The notes under the pieces are model-generated. The model searched no databases. It was not told the origin of the DNA and saw only the letters and a program-made list of their open reading frames with translations. A stretch of 64,000 nucleotides of DNA, taken from contig OX637393.1 of assembly GCA_951799425.1 (NCBI GenBank), positions 8,626,244 to 8,690,243 of the forward strand. Reading direction: 5' to 3'. The stretch is from Ilex aquifolium (taxonomy: Eukaryota > Streptophyta > Magnoliopsida > Aquifoliales > Aquifoliaceae). The stretch's first letter is position 1. The number at the start of each line of letters is the position of its first letter. The translations under genes and the position numbers were made by a program. Below are positions 11,591-53,701 of this stretch, piece by piece.

Positions 11591-12493
11591 CTAGTTATTT
11601 CTCGTGCTTGAAGACACGAAATAATAAAAAAATGATCAACAATAAACATATTTGTATTCACACCCAAAATCAAATTATAAATATAGAGGAGAGAGAAAGA
11701 AATTTAAGCACCGGTCGTAGTGGTGGTGGACAACAGTGGTGGTGGTAGGAGATAGTGATGGTTGTGATGGGTGACGACGACCGATTGTGATGGTGGCAAC
11801 TGTGGGTGGCAATGGTGATAGTGGTGGTGGGACGGGTGTTAGTGGGACAGTAGCAATGGTTGTAAGGTGGGGACAACAGTGGTAGCGGTGGTGGTGGGGT
11901 GGCAGTAGTGGTGGTGGTGGGGGCGGTGGTAGAGCGGTTATGATGGTTGTTGTGGAAGAGGTGGTGGTAGGGTGACAGCAGTGGTGATGGTGATGATGGT
12001 GAGGTGGAGGTGGGGATGAGGGGTGGGGCGGTAGCGGTAGTGATGGTGGTGGTAGAGCAATGGGGGTGGTAGTAGTGGTAGTGGTGATGGTGGTGGGGGT
12101 GGGGCGATAGTGGTGGCGGGATGATGAGGGTGGTGGTGGTGGTGGTGGTGATAGTGATGGTGGTGGGGTAGTGGCGGCAGTGGCGACGGTAGTGGTAGTG
12201 ATGGTGGTGGTGGTGGGGCGGTGGCGGTGATGGGGGTAGTGGTGGTGGTGGGGCAGTTCCAAACACTATTTTTTTTTTATATACTTATGAAAAATTATAA
12301 ATTCTATAAGCACTTTCAAAAAGTTACTCCAAACACACCCTTAGGGACCTATTTTTTCCATTAAATTTGAGATGTTAATATTAACAATCAGATTAACTTT
12401 AAAGTAAAATTTAAAGAGATCTCAACCGCGAAAAGTAAAAGTCATTTTGTTTATCTTTTGATATTTGAATTGTATTGTACTTTATTATATAAA
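11591..12493 (-). mobile_element. Non-autonomous Helitron A of a tandem triple
   Basis: The 3' end is CTAG at 11591-11594, preceded on the element strand by the hairpin TCGTGTCTTCAAGCACGA and followed by host T. The 5' end reads TATATAATAAAGTA (12478-12491) with the initial TC lost. Between them lie conserved flanks and a minisatellite, about 11715-12255, of CAC/CCA-type triplets on the element strand. It encodes no Rep/helicase, so it is non-autonomous. The long His/Pro/Thr-rich frames on the minus strand are translations of the triplet tract, not genes. Confidence 0.85.
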
Positions 12494-12497
12494 TATA

Positions 12498-13807
12498 CTA
12501 GTTATTGTTTGTGCCTGAAGACATAAAGTAATTAAAAAAATGCTCAACAATAAACATATTTGTATTCACACCCAAAATCAAATCACAAACATAGAGAAGA
12601 AAAAAATGAATTTAAGAACAGGTTGTAGTGGGGATGAACAGTGGTAGTGGTGGTGGTAGGAGACGGTGATAGTTGTGGTGGGTGGCGACAACCGTGGTGA
12701 TGGTGACAGTCGTGGGTGGCAATAATGATGGCAGCGGTGGGTGGCGACTACCGTGGTGATGGTGACAGTCGTAGGTGGCAACAATGATGGTGGTGGTGGG
12801 TGTGGGTGACGGTAATGGTGGTTGGTAGTGGTGGTGGGCGGTGAACGATGGTGGTGATGGGCGACGACAGGTGCTTTTGGGCAATAGTGTGGTGGGTGGT
12901 GGCAAATGGCGGTGGTGGTGTTGGTGATAAATGTGGTAAGGGGTGGGTGACAGTGGCTGACGACGATGGTGGGTGACAACGGTTGATGATGGGTTGTGGT
13001 AGTGGGTGGTGATGGGTGGTGGTGAGCAACAATGATGATGGTGGGTGTTGACGGTGGGGGACAGTGGTAGTGGTAATAAATATAAGAATGAAATGACAAT
13101 GATGATAGATGGTGGTGGTGGACGACGGTAGCAGCAATCGGTGGTGGGGCAGTGACGACGATATGGTGGTAGTGGGGTGGGATGGGGGTGGTGAAGGTGG
13201 GGTGGGATGGGGGTGGTGGTGGGGCAGTGGCGGTGGTGGTGGGGTGGCGGCGATGGTGATGGGGGTGGTGGTGGGACAGTGGCGGTAGGGCGACGACAGT
13301 AGTTGTGGTGGTGATGTTGGGGTGGCGATGGTGGGGTTGAGAGTGGTTGTAGTGGGAATGGTGGTGGTGGGGCGATGGGGGTGGCGGTGGTGATGGGGGT
13401 GGGGGTAGGGGTAGCGATGGCGGTGGGGCGGTAAGGGTAGTTGTGGTGGTGATGGGGGTGGGGGTGGGGCGGCAGGGGTAGTTGTGGTGGTGGTGATGGG
13501 GGTGGTGGGGGTAGTTGTGGTGGTGGTGGGGCGATGGTGGTGATGGTAGTGGTGGTGGTGAGGTGGTTCCAAACATTATTTTTTTTTTTTTTTAAAAGTA
13601 CTTATTAGAAATTATAAGTTCTAGAAACACTTTTAAAAAGTCATCTCAAACACACCATCAGTGACATATTTTTCCTATTAAATTTGGGATGTTAATATTA
13701 ACTGTCGGATTAACTTTAGAGTAAAATTTAAAAAGATCTCAACTGCGAAAAACAAAAATCATTAGTTTATCTTTTGAGATTTGAATTGTATTATATTTTA
13801 TTATATA
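12498..13807 (-). mobile_element. Non-autonomous Helitron B of a tandem triple
   Basis: CTAG 3' terminus at 12498-12501 with a hairpin remnant (TTGTGCCTGAAGACATAA as read on the plus strand). The 5' terminus reads TATATAATAAAATA (to 13807) without its TC. The internal triplet minisatellite, about 12625-13565, is the longest of the family. Flanks match copies A and C. No transposition genes. The 332-codon His/Pro frame is low-complexity and rejected as a gene. Confidence 0.85.
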
Positions 13808-13809
13808 TA

Positions 13810-14537
13810 CTAGTTATTCTCTGTGCCTAAAGATACGGAATAATAAAAAAAATAATCAACAATAAATATATTTGTATTCACACCTGAAGTCAAATCACAA
13901 AGATAGAAGAGAGATAAAAGAATTTAAGCACCAATTGTAGTGGAGGCGAGCGGTGGTAATGGTGGTGGTGGGAGACGGTGATTGTTGTGGTGGGGGCGTT
14001 GTGGGTGGTGGTGGTAGTGGTAATGGTAGGGGTGGCAATTGTGGTGGTGGTGGGGCGATGAGGGTAATGGTAGTGGTGATGGGGCGGTGGGTGTGCCGAT
14101 GGTGATGGGGTGGCAACAGTGGTGGTGGTGGTGGTTTTTGTGGCAAAGGTGATGGTGGGGTGGCGGCAGCGGTGGTAGTGGTGATGGTGGTGGTGGTAGG
14201 GGTAGTTATGGTGATGATGGTGGTGGTAGGGGTAGTTGTGGTGGTGGTAGTAGTGATGGTGGTGGGGTAGCGGTGGTGGTAGTGGTGGTGGGGCTGTTCT
14301 AAACACTTATTTTTTTTTTTTAAAGTATTTATGAGAAGTTATAAGTTATAGAAGCACTTTTAAAAAGTTACCCCAAAAACATCCTTAAGAGTTTATTTTT
14401 CCTATTAAATTTGGAGTATTAATATTAGTCGTCGGATTAACTTTAAAGTAAAATTTAAAAAAAAATTAACCTCAAAAAACAAAAGTCATTTTATTTATCT
14501 TTTGAGATTTGAATTGTATTATACTTTATTATATAAA
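13810..14537 (-). mobile_element. Non-autonomous Helitron C of a tandem triple
   Basis: CTAG 3' terminus at 13810-13813 with a degenerate hairpin. Triplet minisatellite about 13935-14295. 5' flank as in A and B, ending near TATATAATAAAGTA at about 14522-14537. On the element strand its CTAG is followed directly by TATATAATAAA of copy B. Confidence 0.85.
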
Positions 14538-15003: not shown

Positions 15004-15060
15004 CTAGTTGATGTACACGTGCGTTGCACGTGAACTATTTTGAATTTAAATATTGTATAT
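15004..15060 (-). mobile_element. Helitron 3' terminus (orphan or end of a large element)
   Basis: Read on the minus strand, a strong palindrome CACGTGCAACGCACGTG is followed by TACATCAACTAG and host T, the textbook Helitron 3' end. The matching 5' TC end is not certain. A candidate is TCTATATCTATCTATAC on the minus strand at 23874, which would make an 8.9-kb element enclosing the kinase fragment and the hAT insertion. That pairing is inference. Confidence 0.6.
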
Positions 15061-20350: not shown

Positions 20351-23300
20351 CAAGGGCGGAGTCAGGATTTTTGTTTATCCCGGGCTAAGCTAAGCATTCA
20401 TACGACTAACAAAATACAAATGTAAACTCATAAACATATATACAATAATACAAATGTAAACTAATAAACACTTACTAATGAAATTGGACTCTTCGATCCT
20501 TCCTAGAACAAAAGGCATCTATTATTGAATCTGTATCGATTGCTTTCGTTTTTTCTCTTTCAATGTAGACAAGTAATGAATCAGTCAAATACTCATTTTC
20601 CATCTTGTTACGAAGAGTACTTTTGACATGTTTCATGACTGAAAATGCTCTTTTTGAAGTTGTCGTAGAAACGAGAAGAGTTAAAATAAGACGAATCAAC
20701 CTATCAATCAAATTGTAGGACTCTGTCATATTTGTTTCTACTAAACCACGACATAATTCTGAAATTGTAGACATACTTTGAAACCTCTCATGGTGAACCA
20801 CATAAAATCGATAATGATCCAGTTGACATTTCAAATGATGCATGTCTTGTCTGTCAAAATCAGTTGCATAAAACTTCTCAGCAAGTAAACAAATGCGATC
20901 AGGATTGAAAGATTTAAAGTTGTCCCGAGGATCTAAAGCAGAGCTGAGCATAAGCAATTCTATTGTCTCTTTATTGAATCTACTATGTACCTCTTCTAAC
21001 TGATGATCAATCATAGCATTAAATATGTCCATGTGATAGTGATGATCAACTGTAATGTTATCATTCTGTTGACATGAACGTCTTGCCCTTTTGTACTGAG
21101 TGCTCATATCATGTATATCGACATCAAATTTCATGCAAACTGATTTCACATGGTCAAGGAGATAATCAAAACCTTATGGTCGCAAGGTTTGAAGCAATGA
21201 TTTTGTCGATGAGACTAAATTCATTGCATTCAAAATATCTAATGATTTGTGCTGCAATGCCCGACAAAGCATATATGTAATATTGTGCATAAGATGCAAT
21301 ATGAATATGAAATCGAAGGATTTCATTGCCATTAAAGAACCACCAGCTTCCCCACGAATTGTATTTGAAGATCCTTCGTTAACCATACATTCAAACACAC
21401 TAATGATAGCATCATACATATCTATCAGACCGCAAATGGATTCAAAATGTGAGCTCCAACGAGTAGTACCAGCTCGATGCAAAGTACCCATCTGATTAGC
21501 CCCTTTACCAATCTCTCATTCACCACTAGCTATCCCCCTTTCAATCTCAGTAGCTTGGGCAGATCGCAGCTCTGTATGACGCCTAGGAGAAACACTAATA
21601 AGATTGACAATGCATGTCAATTTGGAAAAGAATTGCCATATTGAAATCTCATCTTCAGCAGTTGCAACTAATGCAAGTTGTAAACGATGAGCAAAGCAAT
21701 GAACATAGTATGCATACTCACAATTATTGCGGAACAAAGCTTGCAATCCATTAAATGCACCACGCATGTTGCTAGCACCATCATATCCTTGACCTCGTAA
21801 ATCTCGAATGTGCAAATTGTGTCGAGTAAGAACTTTTGATATTTTCTTCTTAAGAGTTAAAGAAGTGGTATCTTTAACATGCACAATCTCAAAAAATCTC
21901 TCCTGCAAAAAACCCTGAACATCAACAAATCTCAGAACAATTGTCATTTGTTCTTTATTCGATGCATCCTTTGCTTCATCAACCAAAATACAAAACTTGA
22001 CATTTCCAACTTCTTCATGGATTTTTTCTCTTACTTTAGTAGCTAAAATATGCAAAATATATTTTTGGATCATAGGAGACGTATACTTTGCATTTCCTGG
22101 AGCTTTCTCTAAGACAACATCATTTATCTCAACATTCAACTTTGTCATCAAACTAATCATCTCAATTAGATTACTACGGTTCTTTGACATTACAGATTCA
22201 TCACGACCTCTCAAGGCACATCCATGTAAAATAAGTCATTGAACACTATCAATGGTAGCCTTAAGACGCAATCGATTTCTCTTTATTTCTTCTGAACTTT
22301 GAACATTCATAACTTTATCAATGTGTACTGATATATTCTTCAATGCCTCAACATTTCTCACATCATTATTGTGTGTGGAAGTAGGACCTCCCATATGTGA
22401 CAAGAAAACACATTTGGCCCCATTATTCACTCTCTTACAGCTACTAAAATCATCAACGGTAAATGCAGGATGTAGAGGTTCACGACCTTGAAAAATAAAG
22501 CACGGAAAGCAAAATGCCGCATCTTTTGAAATAGAATACTCTAGCCATGGAAATTTTTTGTACCAACTTTCTTGAAATCTTCGATTTTGAACTCCAGTTT
22601 TAGTCCTCAAATACTCAGCCAAGATAGGTTGATTTGGTCCCCAATTTATATAAACACGTCTAACTTCATTTTGATTATAAGCAGGATGTTTCCATATCGG
22701 AATACGCAATGCGGGATCTCGTTCAAGTTCATTCTCATCAAAATGAATCATTGGAACTTTTGTTTAAGGTTGAGGACCTTGAGGTTCAACAGCCGCAGGA
22801 ATCATAGGAACATCAACACTTGTTGATGTTTCTACTAGACTCAAAGGTTCAAGAGTAAAATTTGATGTTTCTTCTCCACTTTTTTTTTTGAAGAACGAAA
22901 AAATTGTTTTTGCTGTTTTTCGTTCTTGATTTTCCATCCTAATAAAGTAGAGAAGAGCTGAAAATTAGAGAAACAAACCAGAGAAACAAATCAACAAGAC
23001 AACAATGATTCTACTATTCCAGTTAAAAAATAATCAACAGAAAATCAGAGAAAACAACCCAAATAACGTCTGAATATATGATCAAGGAGACAAGGAATGA
23101 GTCATGGTACCTCACACAGCTTAGGCGTAATTCCTGTTTGTGGTTCTTGGAAGAGGATTAGTCGAGTAGAACTAGAGGACGAATGGACGATACAGACGAA
23201 ATCGAGGTGCTTGGCGTTGGCGTAATCCCTTTTCTGTTCAAAAGCCTGAAAAGCCTGAAAAACTCTTTCTTTCTATGATTATTGGGGCTTAAGCCTTAAG

Positions 23301-24355: not shown

Positions 24356-26568
24356 TCTATATAATAAAGTAGAACGAATTTGAATTTTGGAGACAAAGAG
24401 TGGCCCAGATCGTTTCGTAATCAAAAAAGTCATCATCCAGCGGATGACGTTATCCTAAACTGTCTCAAGCTATTGACGTTTCAGATCGTTTCGATCCGAC
24501 GTACCATATTAGCTCTTGAAATTTTTTTACCGCTCAAAACTTTTAGTTTCCAAAACTAACATCCCTAAATTTAATTCCCCAACCCAATCAAATCCGACAA
24601 TTAAGCGATCTCTCATTCCTCAACTCTGTCTCTCTCTCCCTAAAATACAGATTACAATTATTATCATTATTTTCCTGATTTTATTTCCTATGTTAAATGA
24701 TCACTTTCTATACTGAGACATTGACTGTCTCTCACACTCTCATCTTTCATGATTCTCTTTCCAACTTGAGACATGTTTCCCCAAAATTTTATCCTAATGC
24801 AGCTGCTCTCAATCTTTACTGTTCATATCACACACACATCTTTACTGTACATATATATATAATACAAAGATCAAGACATACTAGATCTACATGTTATATC
24901 TAGGGAAAGTTTCATCTAAACACCATGTAGTTGAAATAATTATTTAACTAAATATTTTGTGAAAATATTAAAATTACCCTTTATTATGTAAATAGACTAA
25001 AATGTCATCAATTCTTTTCCCATTATATATGCGTTAGTCAGCCAACAAACGTAATTTCAATCATTATATTATCCTAATAAATTTTTTATTTAAAAACGTT
25101 GTATTATAACTTTGTTATAATATTAGTCATCATATTATCACTCATTTGGTTACATAATCAAGTTTTTATAATTTTTATATTTTTTTATCATAATAATTTT
25201 TATAGTTAAAAACGATTTTTCTATAATAAAAATTACAATTGATAAAATCAATGTCAAAATCTCATCCATTTCTAATTCTTTTGCTATCATATGTCCTCCA
25301 CAACGTTGCCTGACCGCTCCTCACACATCATACTTCATATATAAAATTTAAAATTATTTGATAAAATTTAATATTACTTGAATAAATTTGATCTTAATTT
25401 TGATAAATTTAAATATTAATTTAGTTTTAATTTGATAAAATTAAATATTAATTTAGTATTAATTTGATTGAATTTAATGTTAATTGAATAAATTTGCATG
25501 TTGTTTTAATAAAATTGAATGTTCATTTGGTGTTAAATTAAAGAAATGACATTAATTTGATAAGGTTAAAATTTAAATTAATGGAATTTAATATTCTATT
25601 TAATAAATTAAATAGTTTAATTTAATAAAATTGAATGTCAATTTGATATTGATTTGATAAAAATAAATAATAACTTAATATTAAATTAAAGAAATAATAT
25701 TAATTTGATGAAATAAAATATTAAATTAATATAACTAAATGCTAATTTGATAAAATTAAATATCAATTTTGTGTTGATTTGATTTGATTTGATGAAATGT
25801 TAATTTAGTTTAAATTAAATAAAGAAAATTAATTTGATAAAATTGAATATTAAATTGATCAAAATAAAGGCTAATATAATAAAATTAAAAGGGAGTGCAT
25901 TGAAATTTTAGAATCAAGAGATGGTGTTGTTAAAGTTAGGTCTATTTACAGGAGGTGTTGTTAAAGTTAGGTTTATTTATAAGGGGTGTGGATAAAATTT
26001 ATCCTATAAAATACTCGGAGATATTTCTATAAATCAACCGTCACCATTAACGGTGTAATCCGACAATCACTAACAGGGAGTGATAGTGAAATTTCAAAAT
26101 CGGAAGGAGATGTCATTGAATTTAGACCTAACTACAGGAGATCTGAATGAAATTTTCTCTTATATCTATACAAATATATATAATAAAACACATAGGAAGT
26201 AAAAAAAAAAACACATAAGAAGTTGAATTTTATCCCCTATACATTTTCCTCCCCCCAAAATCACCACATCACTCATTTCTATCACATGCTCAACCATTTA
26301 ATATTTGATTAATTTGTAATTTAACATAATTTTTATTTCAGATATTATCTATGAGCGATAATATAGATCTGTTAAAAAAATTTATCGAATTATATATTTT
26401 GAGAAAATTTTATCAATATCTTTAAGAAAATAATGGGTAAAAATAAATTTTGAATGATTTAATCCAATAAATGAAGGAAAGAAAAATTATTATTTAATAT
26501 AGTGATATCGATTTTTTAGGACTCAAATTTTTTGTTCTATCGGGCCTTCAGTCACGGGTTATGACTAG
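24356..26568 (+). mobile_element. Non-autonomous Helitron upstream of the proline-rich gene
   Basis: The 5' end TCTATATAATAAAGTAGAAC follows host A at 24355. The 3' end TTATGACTAG stops at 26568 before host T, preceded by a degenerate hairpin (CGGGCCTTCAGTCACGG). Inside, many short ATTAATTTGATAAAAT-like repeats fill 25350-25890. No replicase frame. A smaller nested element starting near 26165 (TCTATACAAATATATATAAT) and sharing this 3' end is an alternative. Confidence 0.6.
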
Positions 26569-47073: not shown

Positions 47074-47530
47074 TCTATATAATAAAGTACAATACAATTC
47101 AAATCTCAAAAGATAAACAAAATGACTTTTGCTTTTCGCGATTGAGATCTTTTTAACTTTTACTTTAAAGTTAATCCGACGACTAATATTAATACTCTAA
47201 ATTTAATAGGAAAAATAAGCTCCTAAGGGTACGTTTAGAGTAATTTTTTAAAAGTATTTTTAATACTTATAACTTCTCATAAATACTTTAAAAAAAAATA
47301 ATATTTAGAACCGTCCCACCATCACCTTTATCACCGCCACCCCCCCCCGCCCCACCATCACCACTACCATCACCACCATTGTTACCGCCACCGCCACTAT
47401 CACCACCCTACCACACCCATCGCCCCCACCACCACCATCACCACCCACACTGTCCCACCATCACCACCACCACCGCTACCAACACCCCCACCACCCCCAC
47501 CCCCACCCCCACCCCCACCACCATCATCAA
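47074..47530 (+). mobile_element. Helitron D, 5' portion with CAC minisatellite, 3' end missing
   Basis: The 5' end TCTATATAATAAAGTACAAT follows host A at 47073. The flank (TTTTGCTTTTCGCGATTGAG, AAAGTTAATCCGACG) matches the family. A CAC/CCA minisatellite covers about 47315-47525. The conserved 3' flank and hairpin-CTAG found in the other copies are absent after the tract. The copy is truncated or recombined there. Confidence 0.75.
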
Positions 47531-47837
47531 ACACTAAATATGAGATGATTATGGTAATTGAAATCGAGATATCTCTTTACTAGGAATAAGATATCTATTT
47601 TCAATTAAATTTAATGTCATTCAACCGTGCACTCAATCTTTTATTTAAAGAAACACAACTTAAACCAATCACCGATAAGCATAATCTGCAAACTTTGAGC
47701 CCTTGCCCAAAGGCATAACTTTCAGATATAATATATTTTTTTTATAAAGCTCTTTTATATTCTATTTATTTGATTTATTATTTTATTGAAGTATTTAAAA
47801 ATCAAAGGATTAAGATCATAATATAAAAAATTGAAAA

Positions 47838-49920: not shown

Positions 49921-50160
49921 TAGGCGCGTCAACGAATCGGAATCGGACGGACTTAAGTCTATTCGATTAAAAAAATCCATTATCTAACCCAATCCGTTGA
50001 CTCAACATATAAAAAAATATTAGTCAATACCCAAATTCGTTTATAATCAGACATCTGGTTCGATTGCCCGATCTGATCCAAAATGGTATTCTATCAAAAT
50101 TTCAACAAATAATCTTTTTTTTAGATCAAATACAAATAATCAATATATTTATATGTATAT

Positions 50161-50876
50161 ATTAACTTAATCAAATTTTTATAAGATCAAATATGTATAT
50201 ACCCATATATATATATATATATAATAAAGTAGTTTACAATTCAAATTTCAAAAGATAAACAAAATGATTTTTGCTTTTCGCGGTTCAGATCGCTTTAAAT
50301 TTTACTTTAAAGTTAATCTAACAGCTAATATTAACACTCTAAATTTAATATGAAAAATAGGCCCCTAATAGTGTGTTTGGAGTGATTTTTTAAAAGTACT
50401 TTTAAAAATTATTTCTCATAAGTACTTTCAAAAAAATAATAGTGTTTAAAACCGTCCTACCACTATTTCTACCACCACCACCCCCACCCCCACCACCACC
50501 GCCACTACAGCAGTCGCCGCCACCACCGCCGCCACAACGGCCATCACCACCACGACTCCGCCATCGCCGCCACCGTCGTCGCCACCATCATCGTCATCAC
50601 CTCCACTACGGTCATTGCCACCCACTACAATCATCACCGTCTCCTACCACCACCACTGCCGCCCACTACTTCTCACCCCCATTACAAACTGTTGCTTAAA
50701 TTACTTTATCTCTTCTCTATGTTTGTGATTTGATTTTAGATATGAATACAAATATGTTTATTGTTTACCATTTTTTATTACACTGTGACTTCAGACACAG
50801 CCAATAACTAGTATATATATAGATATTAACTTAATCAAATTTTTATAAGATCAAATCTGTATATACCCATATATAT
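50161..50876 (+). repeat. 52-bp direct repeats flanking Helitron E
   Basis: 50161-50212 and 50825-50876 both read ATTAACTTAATCAAATTTTT, then ATAAGATCAAAT(A/C)TGTATA and TACCCATATATAT. One mismatch in 52 bp. Too long for a Helitron target effect. Confidence 0.85.
50209..50811 (+). mobile_element. Helitron E with CAC minisatellite
   Basis: The 3' end CAATAACTAG stops at 50811 before host T, preceded by the perfect hairpin CTGTGACTTCAGACACAG. The 5' end is merged into an (AT)n run before ATAATAAAGTAG, so the start is approximate. CAC/CCG-type minisatellite about 50455-50690. The Pro/His-rich frame there is not a gene. Confidence 0.85.
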
Positions 50877-51326
50877 CCAATTTAAGATATTTCAATAAAT
50901 TCGAATCAAATTCAAAAAATAAATTAAAATATTAATCTATATTTAATTAAACAAATTCAAATTCAGATCGAAATTCGAACTGAAATTTGGTTCATTGAGA
51001 AGTCTAGTCGTAAGTTCTACTCTCATACCCACGCAGTAGTCAATATGGGTTTAGGTGGTTTTTCCAATTCATTGTTTTCGACCAGTATTTTCTATGTCCT
51101 CGTGCTTTATGAGGTTCTTTGTCAGTTTGATCACGTTAGTAGTTAATTGGTCACATTTTTTTTTTTCCCTAACAAAAAATGAGTCCAAGTAATATGGGCC
51201 CCAGTTTGTTGGCGCCGTAATAAGTTGACATGTCGTAGGTTTTAGGCATGTTACATTGAATCATATTATTATTATTGTTATTATTTTTTGATATTGTGGT
51301 CGGGATGTTTGAGTGAACTTTTATAT

Positions 51327-53155: not shown

Positions 53156-53701
53156 CTAGTTATTGCCTGTGCCTGAATGCACAAAGTAATAAAAAATGAT
53201 AAATAATAAACATATTTGTATTCATATTCAAAATCAAATCACAAACATAGAAGATATATAAATGAATTTAAGCATCGGTTGTAGTGGGGGTAAGAGATGG
53301 TGGTGGTAGAAGACGGTGATGATTGAGGTGGGTGGCAATGACGGTGGTGGTGGTGGCGGCGACGACGGTGGTGGTGGTGTTGGCGGTGGCGGCGACGACG
53401 GTGGTGGTGGTGGTGAGGTAGTGGTGGATGGGGTTGGGGGTGGTAGAGGTAGTGGTGTGGCGGTTTCAAACACAATTTTTTTTTTTTTAAAGTACTTATG
53501 AGAAATAATTTCTAAAAGTACTTTTAAAAAGTCACTCCAAACACACCCTTAGGGGCCTAGTTTTCATATTAAATTTGTGGTATTAATATTAGCCGTTAGA
53601 TTAACTTTAAAGTAAAATTTAAAGCGATCTGAACCGCGAATAGCAAAAGTCATTTTATTTATCTTTTGAGATTTGAATTGTAAACTACTTTATTATATAG
53701 A
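53156..53701 (-). mobile_element. Helitron F with CAC minisatellite, both termini intact
   Basis: On the minus strand: host A, then TCTATATAATAAAGTAGTTT (from 53701), CAC minisatellite (about 53285-53462 on the plus coordinates), a hairpin around TTGTGCATTCAGGCACAG, and CAATAACTAG ending at 53156 before host T. At 546 bp it is the cleanest copy and defines the family. Confidence 0.92.

Follow-up and report, generated by a model that had tools for sequence, protein, structure and literature searches.

The locus studied here raises the question of how three copies of one Helitron-like family, each ending in CTAG, came to lie head to tail. The copies, named C, B and A in their order on the minus strand, were analysed within a single 64-kb window, by which we mean the whole stretch of DNA under study; both strands were covered, and all positions are counted within the window. 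A first-pass annotation had described three head-to-tail Helitron units in this order, and this description was confirmed, with 5' and 3' parts common to all three. It had also taken the lack of an initial TC at the junctions as a sign of a special mechanism, either rolling-circle transposition with read-through or the repeated landing of elements at the TA-rich 5' end of a copy already present.

Structure of the array

Units A, B and C share one plan: on the 5' side some 240 nt of conserved, AT-rich sequence starting around TATATAATAAAG, then a CAC-rich interior that is degenerate and varies in length, and on the 3' side some 130 nt of conserved sequence ending in AATAACTAG (Table 1). The terminal CTAG lies at positions 13813-13810 in C, 12501-12498 in B and 11594-11591 in A. 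Copy C is the outermost unit on the 5' side of the array and is preceded by the bases ...AATTATA. Profile searches returned E-values of 1e-67 to 1e-64 for the 5' parts of A, B and C and of 3e-37 to 6e-35 for their 3' parts, values that arise partly by construction because the profiles were built from these units. Support independent of the profiles came from a 27-base 5' stretch, which with up to three mismatches occurs six times in the window, compared with a mean of 0.00 in 100 shuffles. Joins in which CTAG is followed, after 0 to 12 bases, by TATATAATAAA occur only at C/B and B/A in the whole window on both strands.

The CAC-rich interiors are open over 198 codons in A (11670-12266, minus strand) and 332 codons in B (12578-13576, minus strand), and these open frames most likely arise as a side effect of the repeat. 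The Pfam search took the five of nine ORFs that lie outside the array.

Table 1. Positions and ends of the family copies and of the spacer within the array.
Feature	Position in window	Strand	Length	Ends and interior
Copy C	13810..14537	-	728 bp	5' TT+TATATAATAAAG; CAC-rich interior; 3' AATAACTAG
Copy B	12498..13809	-	1312 bp	5' TA+TATATAATAAAA, immediately 3' of the CTAG of C
Spacer TATA	12494..12497	-		Separates the CTAG of B from the TT of A
Copy A	11591..12493	-	903 bp	5' TT+TATATAATAAAG; 3' CTAG, then TATATATATCC
Solo copy s47	47074..47536	+		A-TC-TATATAATAAAG kept; truncated, no 3' end found; end approximate
Solo copy s50	50216..50811	+		TA for TC within a TA run; 3' CTAG-TATATATATAG
Solo copy s53	53156..53701	-		A-TC-TATATAATAAAG ... 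CTAG-TATTTAATATCC; both ends present

Solo copies and neighbouring elements

BLAST and profile searches revealed three further copies of the family in the window (s47, s50 and s53). The BLAST matches considered were the first 60, which take in some of those of copy C, and the profile search spanned the whole window, giving six strong matches to the 5' profile and five to the 3' profile; the next matches had E-values of 0.069 and 0.021, respectively. The second of these belongs to an element ending at 26568, which was not kept as a family member, its weak 3' match (E 0.021) being the only one. Copy s50, viewed by eye over positions 50150-50900, is bordered on either side by about 60 nt of AT-rich sequence, and the two flanks are similar, as if the copy had inserted in a local tandem repeat.

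Several other elements were observed. At 24356 on the plus strand, an element of another family starts with A-TC-TATATAATAAAGTAGAACGAATTTG, which is an A-TC-TATATAATAAAG start as well; apart from weak hits, its first 300 bases match the array family over the first 15-19 only. At 15004-15045 on the minus strand, about 470 bp upstream of C, there is a different CTAGT end preceded by a palindrome (CACGTGCAACGCACGTG ... ACATCAACTAGT). Another Helitron family may have its 3' end here, and since this lies near C, the spot may be a Helitron cluster. The minus strand also carries pieces resembling a hAT-type transposase at 20475-22214, where DUF4371 and the hAT C-terminal dimerisation region fall into separate ORFs, and the Pfam search found a WD40 ORF in the window. 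Together with the Helitron type, these pieces and the WD40 ORF suggest a plant host.

Terminal features and target site

All five copies that have a 3' end terminate in CTAG, which conforms to CTRR; s47 lacks this end. The 5' flank ends in A in five of six copies, the exception being B, which is preceded by the G of C's CTAG, and the 3' flank starts with T in 5/5. Each of the five intact 3' ends is followed by TAT[AT]T, a context found at 398 of 12866 AT steps (3.1%) on both strands of the window; two of these ends lie within the array, so three of the five are independent. Runs of TA were present in the right flank of the array and in both flanks of s50.

DNA folds of the 34-base 3' ends were compared with 200 shuffles each. 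Hairpins stood out in A (z -2.88) and s50 (z -2.59), with 3/200 shuffles as good in each case, and less so in s53 (z -1.64, 17/200); in C (z -0.24, 71/200) and B (z +0.83, 200/200) no 3' hairpin rose above the shuffles. No target site duplication was seen by eye around s53, and the two flanks of s50 resemble each other. Judged by size, the elements look non-autonomous, and we filed the family as putative decayed, non-autonomous Helitrons of canonical type.

The TC position and the junctions

When the 5' ends were placed in register, the first two bases read TC in two of six copies (s47 and s53), TT in two (C and A) and TA in two (B and s50). The A-TC-TATATAATAAAG of s47 and s53 is the canonical Helitron start after A. 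In the same register A and C read A-TT-TATATAATAAAG, s50 reads A-TA-TATATAATAAAG and B reads G-TA-TATATAATAAAA, where the G is the last base of C's CTAG. Copies B and A thus have no initial TC, as the first-pass annotation had stated, but the two bases are altered in register and not cut off. The TC is altered in 4/6 copies. In two of these, C and s50, the 5' end does not form part of a tandem junction, and the first-pass annotation had left the altered start of C unmentioned.

This bears directly on the claim that independent insertions should keep a full TC and that its loss therefore calls for a special mechanism. The claim fails: an altered TC also in the solo copy s50 and at the outer end of C removes its main argument, and TC loss was rejected as a signature of tandem junctions. 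A one-base change, or slippage in a TA run, would be enough to alter TC. Where TC is altered at a junction between tandem Helitrons, this on its own is no sign of read-through, and solo copies need to be checked before such a reading is made.

At the C/B junction, CTAG is followed by TATATATAATAAAA, with no spacer if B begins at TA; this junction is unable to tell a consecutive insertion from a concatemer join. The B/A junction reads CTAG-TATA-TT-TATATAATAAAG, with four added bases before the start of A and the A-T step intact. The TATAT previously reported between B and A therefore holds as to its TATA, and in register it resolves into a 4-base spacer (12497-12494) followed by the first base of the altered TC position, TT. 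As they stand, the two junctions do not form a series of exact end-to-start joins of one template: B/A is spaced by TATA, and C/B lacks a spacer but reads TA for TC. The spacer would fit a landing of B four bases upstream of A rather than an exact join, and it helps to separate two published models of adjacent Helitrons.

Divergence and phylogeny of the copies

Sequence differences were compared among six copies from the one 64-kb window, three of them solo, after scripted trimming at fixed places; the CAC-rich interiors, not being alignable, were excluded, and s47 is absent from the 3' counts. The mean difference in the 5' part was 16.8% within the array vs. 16.3% between array and solo copies (bootstrap 95% interval of the gap, -2.2 to +3.1 points), and in the 3' part it was 16.9% vs. 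17.9% (-5.6 to +3.2). The 5' differences ranged from 14.7 to 18.4% within the array, 13.4 to 19.3% between array and solo copies and 8.0 to 15.7% among solo copies; the 3' differences ranged from 14.4 to 18.8% within the array and 14.5 to 19.8% between the array and s50 or s53, with s50 and s53 differing by 14.5%. Transversions in the 5' part amounted to 4.7% within the array vs. 5.4% between array and solo copies (gap 95% -2.7 to +1.3), and in the 3' part they were somewhat fewer within the array, at 3.8% vs. 6.2% (-5.4 to +0.2). The gap spans zero in all four comparisons, that for 3' transversions nearly excluding it in favour of the array. The units, whose equal divergence the first-pass annotation had proposed to check, are thus roughly equally diverged, and about as diverged from the solo copies too. 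In the 5' part, C differs from s47 by 13.4% but from B by 17.4% and from A by 18.4%; A likewise differs less from s53 (13.6%) than from B (14.7%).

Maximum-likelihood trees, inferred under K2P+G4 as a preset model rather than one chosen by test, placed C and s47 apart from A, B, s50 and s53, with a bootstrap value of 87 for the 5' part and 95 for the joined parts, in which s47 is represented without a 3' part. The grouping of A with B was weak (58 for the 5' part and 71 for the joined parts). The tree from the 3' part alone showed another, weak order, with B joining s50 and s53 (bootstrap 60). Constraining A, B and C to form a clade cost 2.7 log units, with an AU p value of 0.129 against the maximum-likelihood tree (5' and joined parts), and in the best tree with such a clade the branch separating the array was close to zero. 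Among all 105 topologies, nine contain the array clade; the AU test rejected six of these, all of which split s50 from s53, and left three.

At one column of the 5' part and at six of the 3' part, A, B and C have in common a state that the solo copies lack; of the six, three are biallelic and one is a gap, and they compare the array with s50 and s53 only, because s47 has no 3' end. Taken together, the distances, trees and shared columns, few as the data are, give no clear sign of a common ancestor of the array.

Origin of the array

We consider it probable that the array consists of three separate, old, non-autonomous Helitron-type copies that landed successively in the same TA-rich site. The anatomy, boundaries, spacer, TC states and divergence described above were observed directly; the order of insertion, the choice of target and the path of TC decay are our inference. 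Each copy would have inserted at an A-T step of the site, B four bases upstream of the first base of A, into A's TATA flank, and C at or beside the first base of B. The terminal TC would then have decayed to TT or TA through point changes or TA slippage, as in a solo copy. The TA-rich flank and start fit the apparent target context of the family, so the 5' end of an old copy would be a good target. The second route of the first-pass annotation, in which elements insert repeatedly at the TA-rich 5' end of an older copy, comes close to this explanation. A clean insertion inside the start of an older copy is held unlikely, as no TCTA remnant was seen by eye upstream of C; a decayed remnant of an older copy there is possible. 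Points that count against successive insertions are an array clade that the AU test leaves standing, the states particular to A, B and C, the somewhat fewer 3' transversions within the array, the spacer-free C/B junction and the small number of solo copies compared (three); three insertions in one place also need a target preference. In a more specific and tentative form, which we think rather improbable, the family would preferentially target the TA-rich sequence at its own 5' side, flank or start, and grow arrays by upstream addition of complete copies. If true, such self-targeting would build Helitron arrays in a way that differs from concatemer formation.

The alternative that survives best, although we judge it unlikely, is that read-through or circle-template rolling-circle replication produced a concatemer of one element, which was inserted as an array and whose units later diverged. 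Head-to-tail order, the presence of both ends in all three units and the spacer-free C/B junction agree with this, as do the 3' columns particular to the array, at least in comparison with s50 and s53, and an array clade that the AU test does not reject. Comparable arrays are reported from plants and bats, and the passages concerned ascribe tandem Helitron arrays to rolling-circle replication (PMC5876387; PMC12628747 on Xiong et al. 2016). Against it stand the TATA spacer at B/A, unless this grew by slippage after an exact join, array copies that are no nearer to one another than to the solo copies, and a best tree without an array clade; a concatemer would have to be about as old as the spread of the family. 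In many of the plant arrays of which PMC12628747 gives an account, moreover, several 5' ends go with only one 3' end, whereas here each unit has both. Read-through rolling-circle transposition, one of the two mechanisms offered by the first-pass annotation, is therefore not supported by the spacer or the divergence, yet the AU p value leaves it some room.

It appears very unlikely that one or two insertions were followed by a duplication or unequal exchange that made the third unit, such as A from B. The weak grouping of A with B speaks for it, but the two differ by 14.7% (5') and 14.4% (3'), are unlike in length (903 vs. 1312 bp) and at the 5' junction (A has TT preceded by a spacer, B has TA and no spacer), and are not grouped by the 3' part alone. 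An assembly artefact is the least credible explanation, as the units differ by 14-19% and in length (Table 1) and so are not one copy repeated by error.

Comparison with known tandem Helitrons

Successive insertion has a close parallel in a pair of adjacent maize Helitrons (PMC2267711), in which, as in our array, the next element begins immediately after the CTAG of its neighbour and the units diverge; from this divergence its authors infer consecutive insertions. One option given in that account is insertion at an AT formed by a host A and the T of the element. The maize pair, as described there, differs in comprising two elements with different genes and in keeping TC at the junction, whereas in our array a single small family supplies all three copies, TC is altered and one junction holds a 4-base spacer. 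According to a passage of PMC3288121, which cites earlier work, maize Helitrons prefer to land near other Helitrons.

Fungal examples are similar in arrangement. PMC5148889 describes a Fusarium Helitron located 2 bp upstream of the 5' part of another, and three Helitron copies in tandem in Metarhizium, for which two explanations are given, namely two rounds of insertion into the 5' end or rolling-circle replication. By the same account these fungal elements are non-canonical and have terminal hairpins or inverted repeats, unlike the family studied here, with its canonical-type ends (TC in two of six copies, CTAG and A-T insertion). The centromeric arrays of plants (Xiong et al. 2016, as summarised in PMC12628747) likewise consist of plant-type Helitrons in tandem, but that summary describes partly decayed, truncated units in several to several hundred repeats, with several 5' ends to one 3' end in many arrays, in contrast to the three two-ended units found here. 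The array is thus a modest new example of a known and fairly ordinary arrangement, triples and both explanations having already been published, and one more case that fits insertion beside existing Helitrons.
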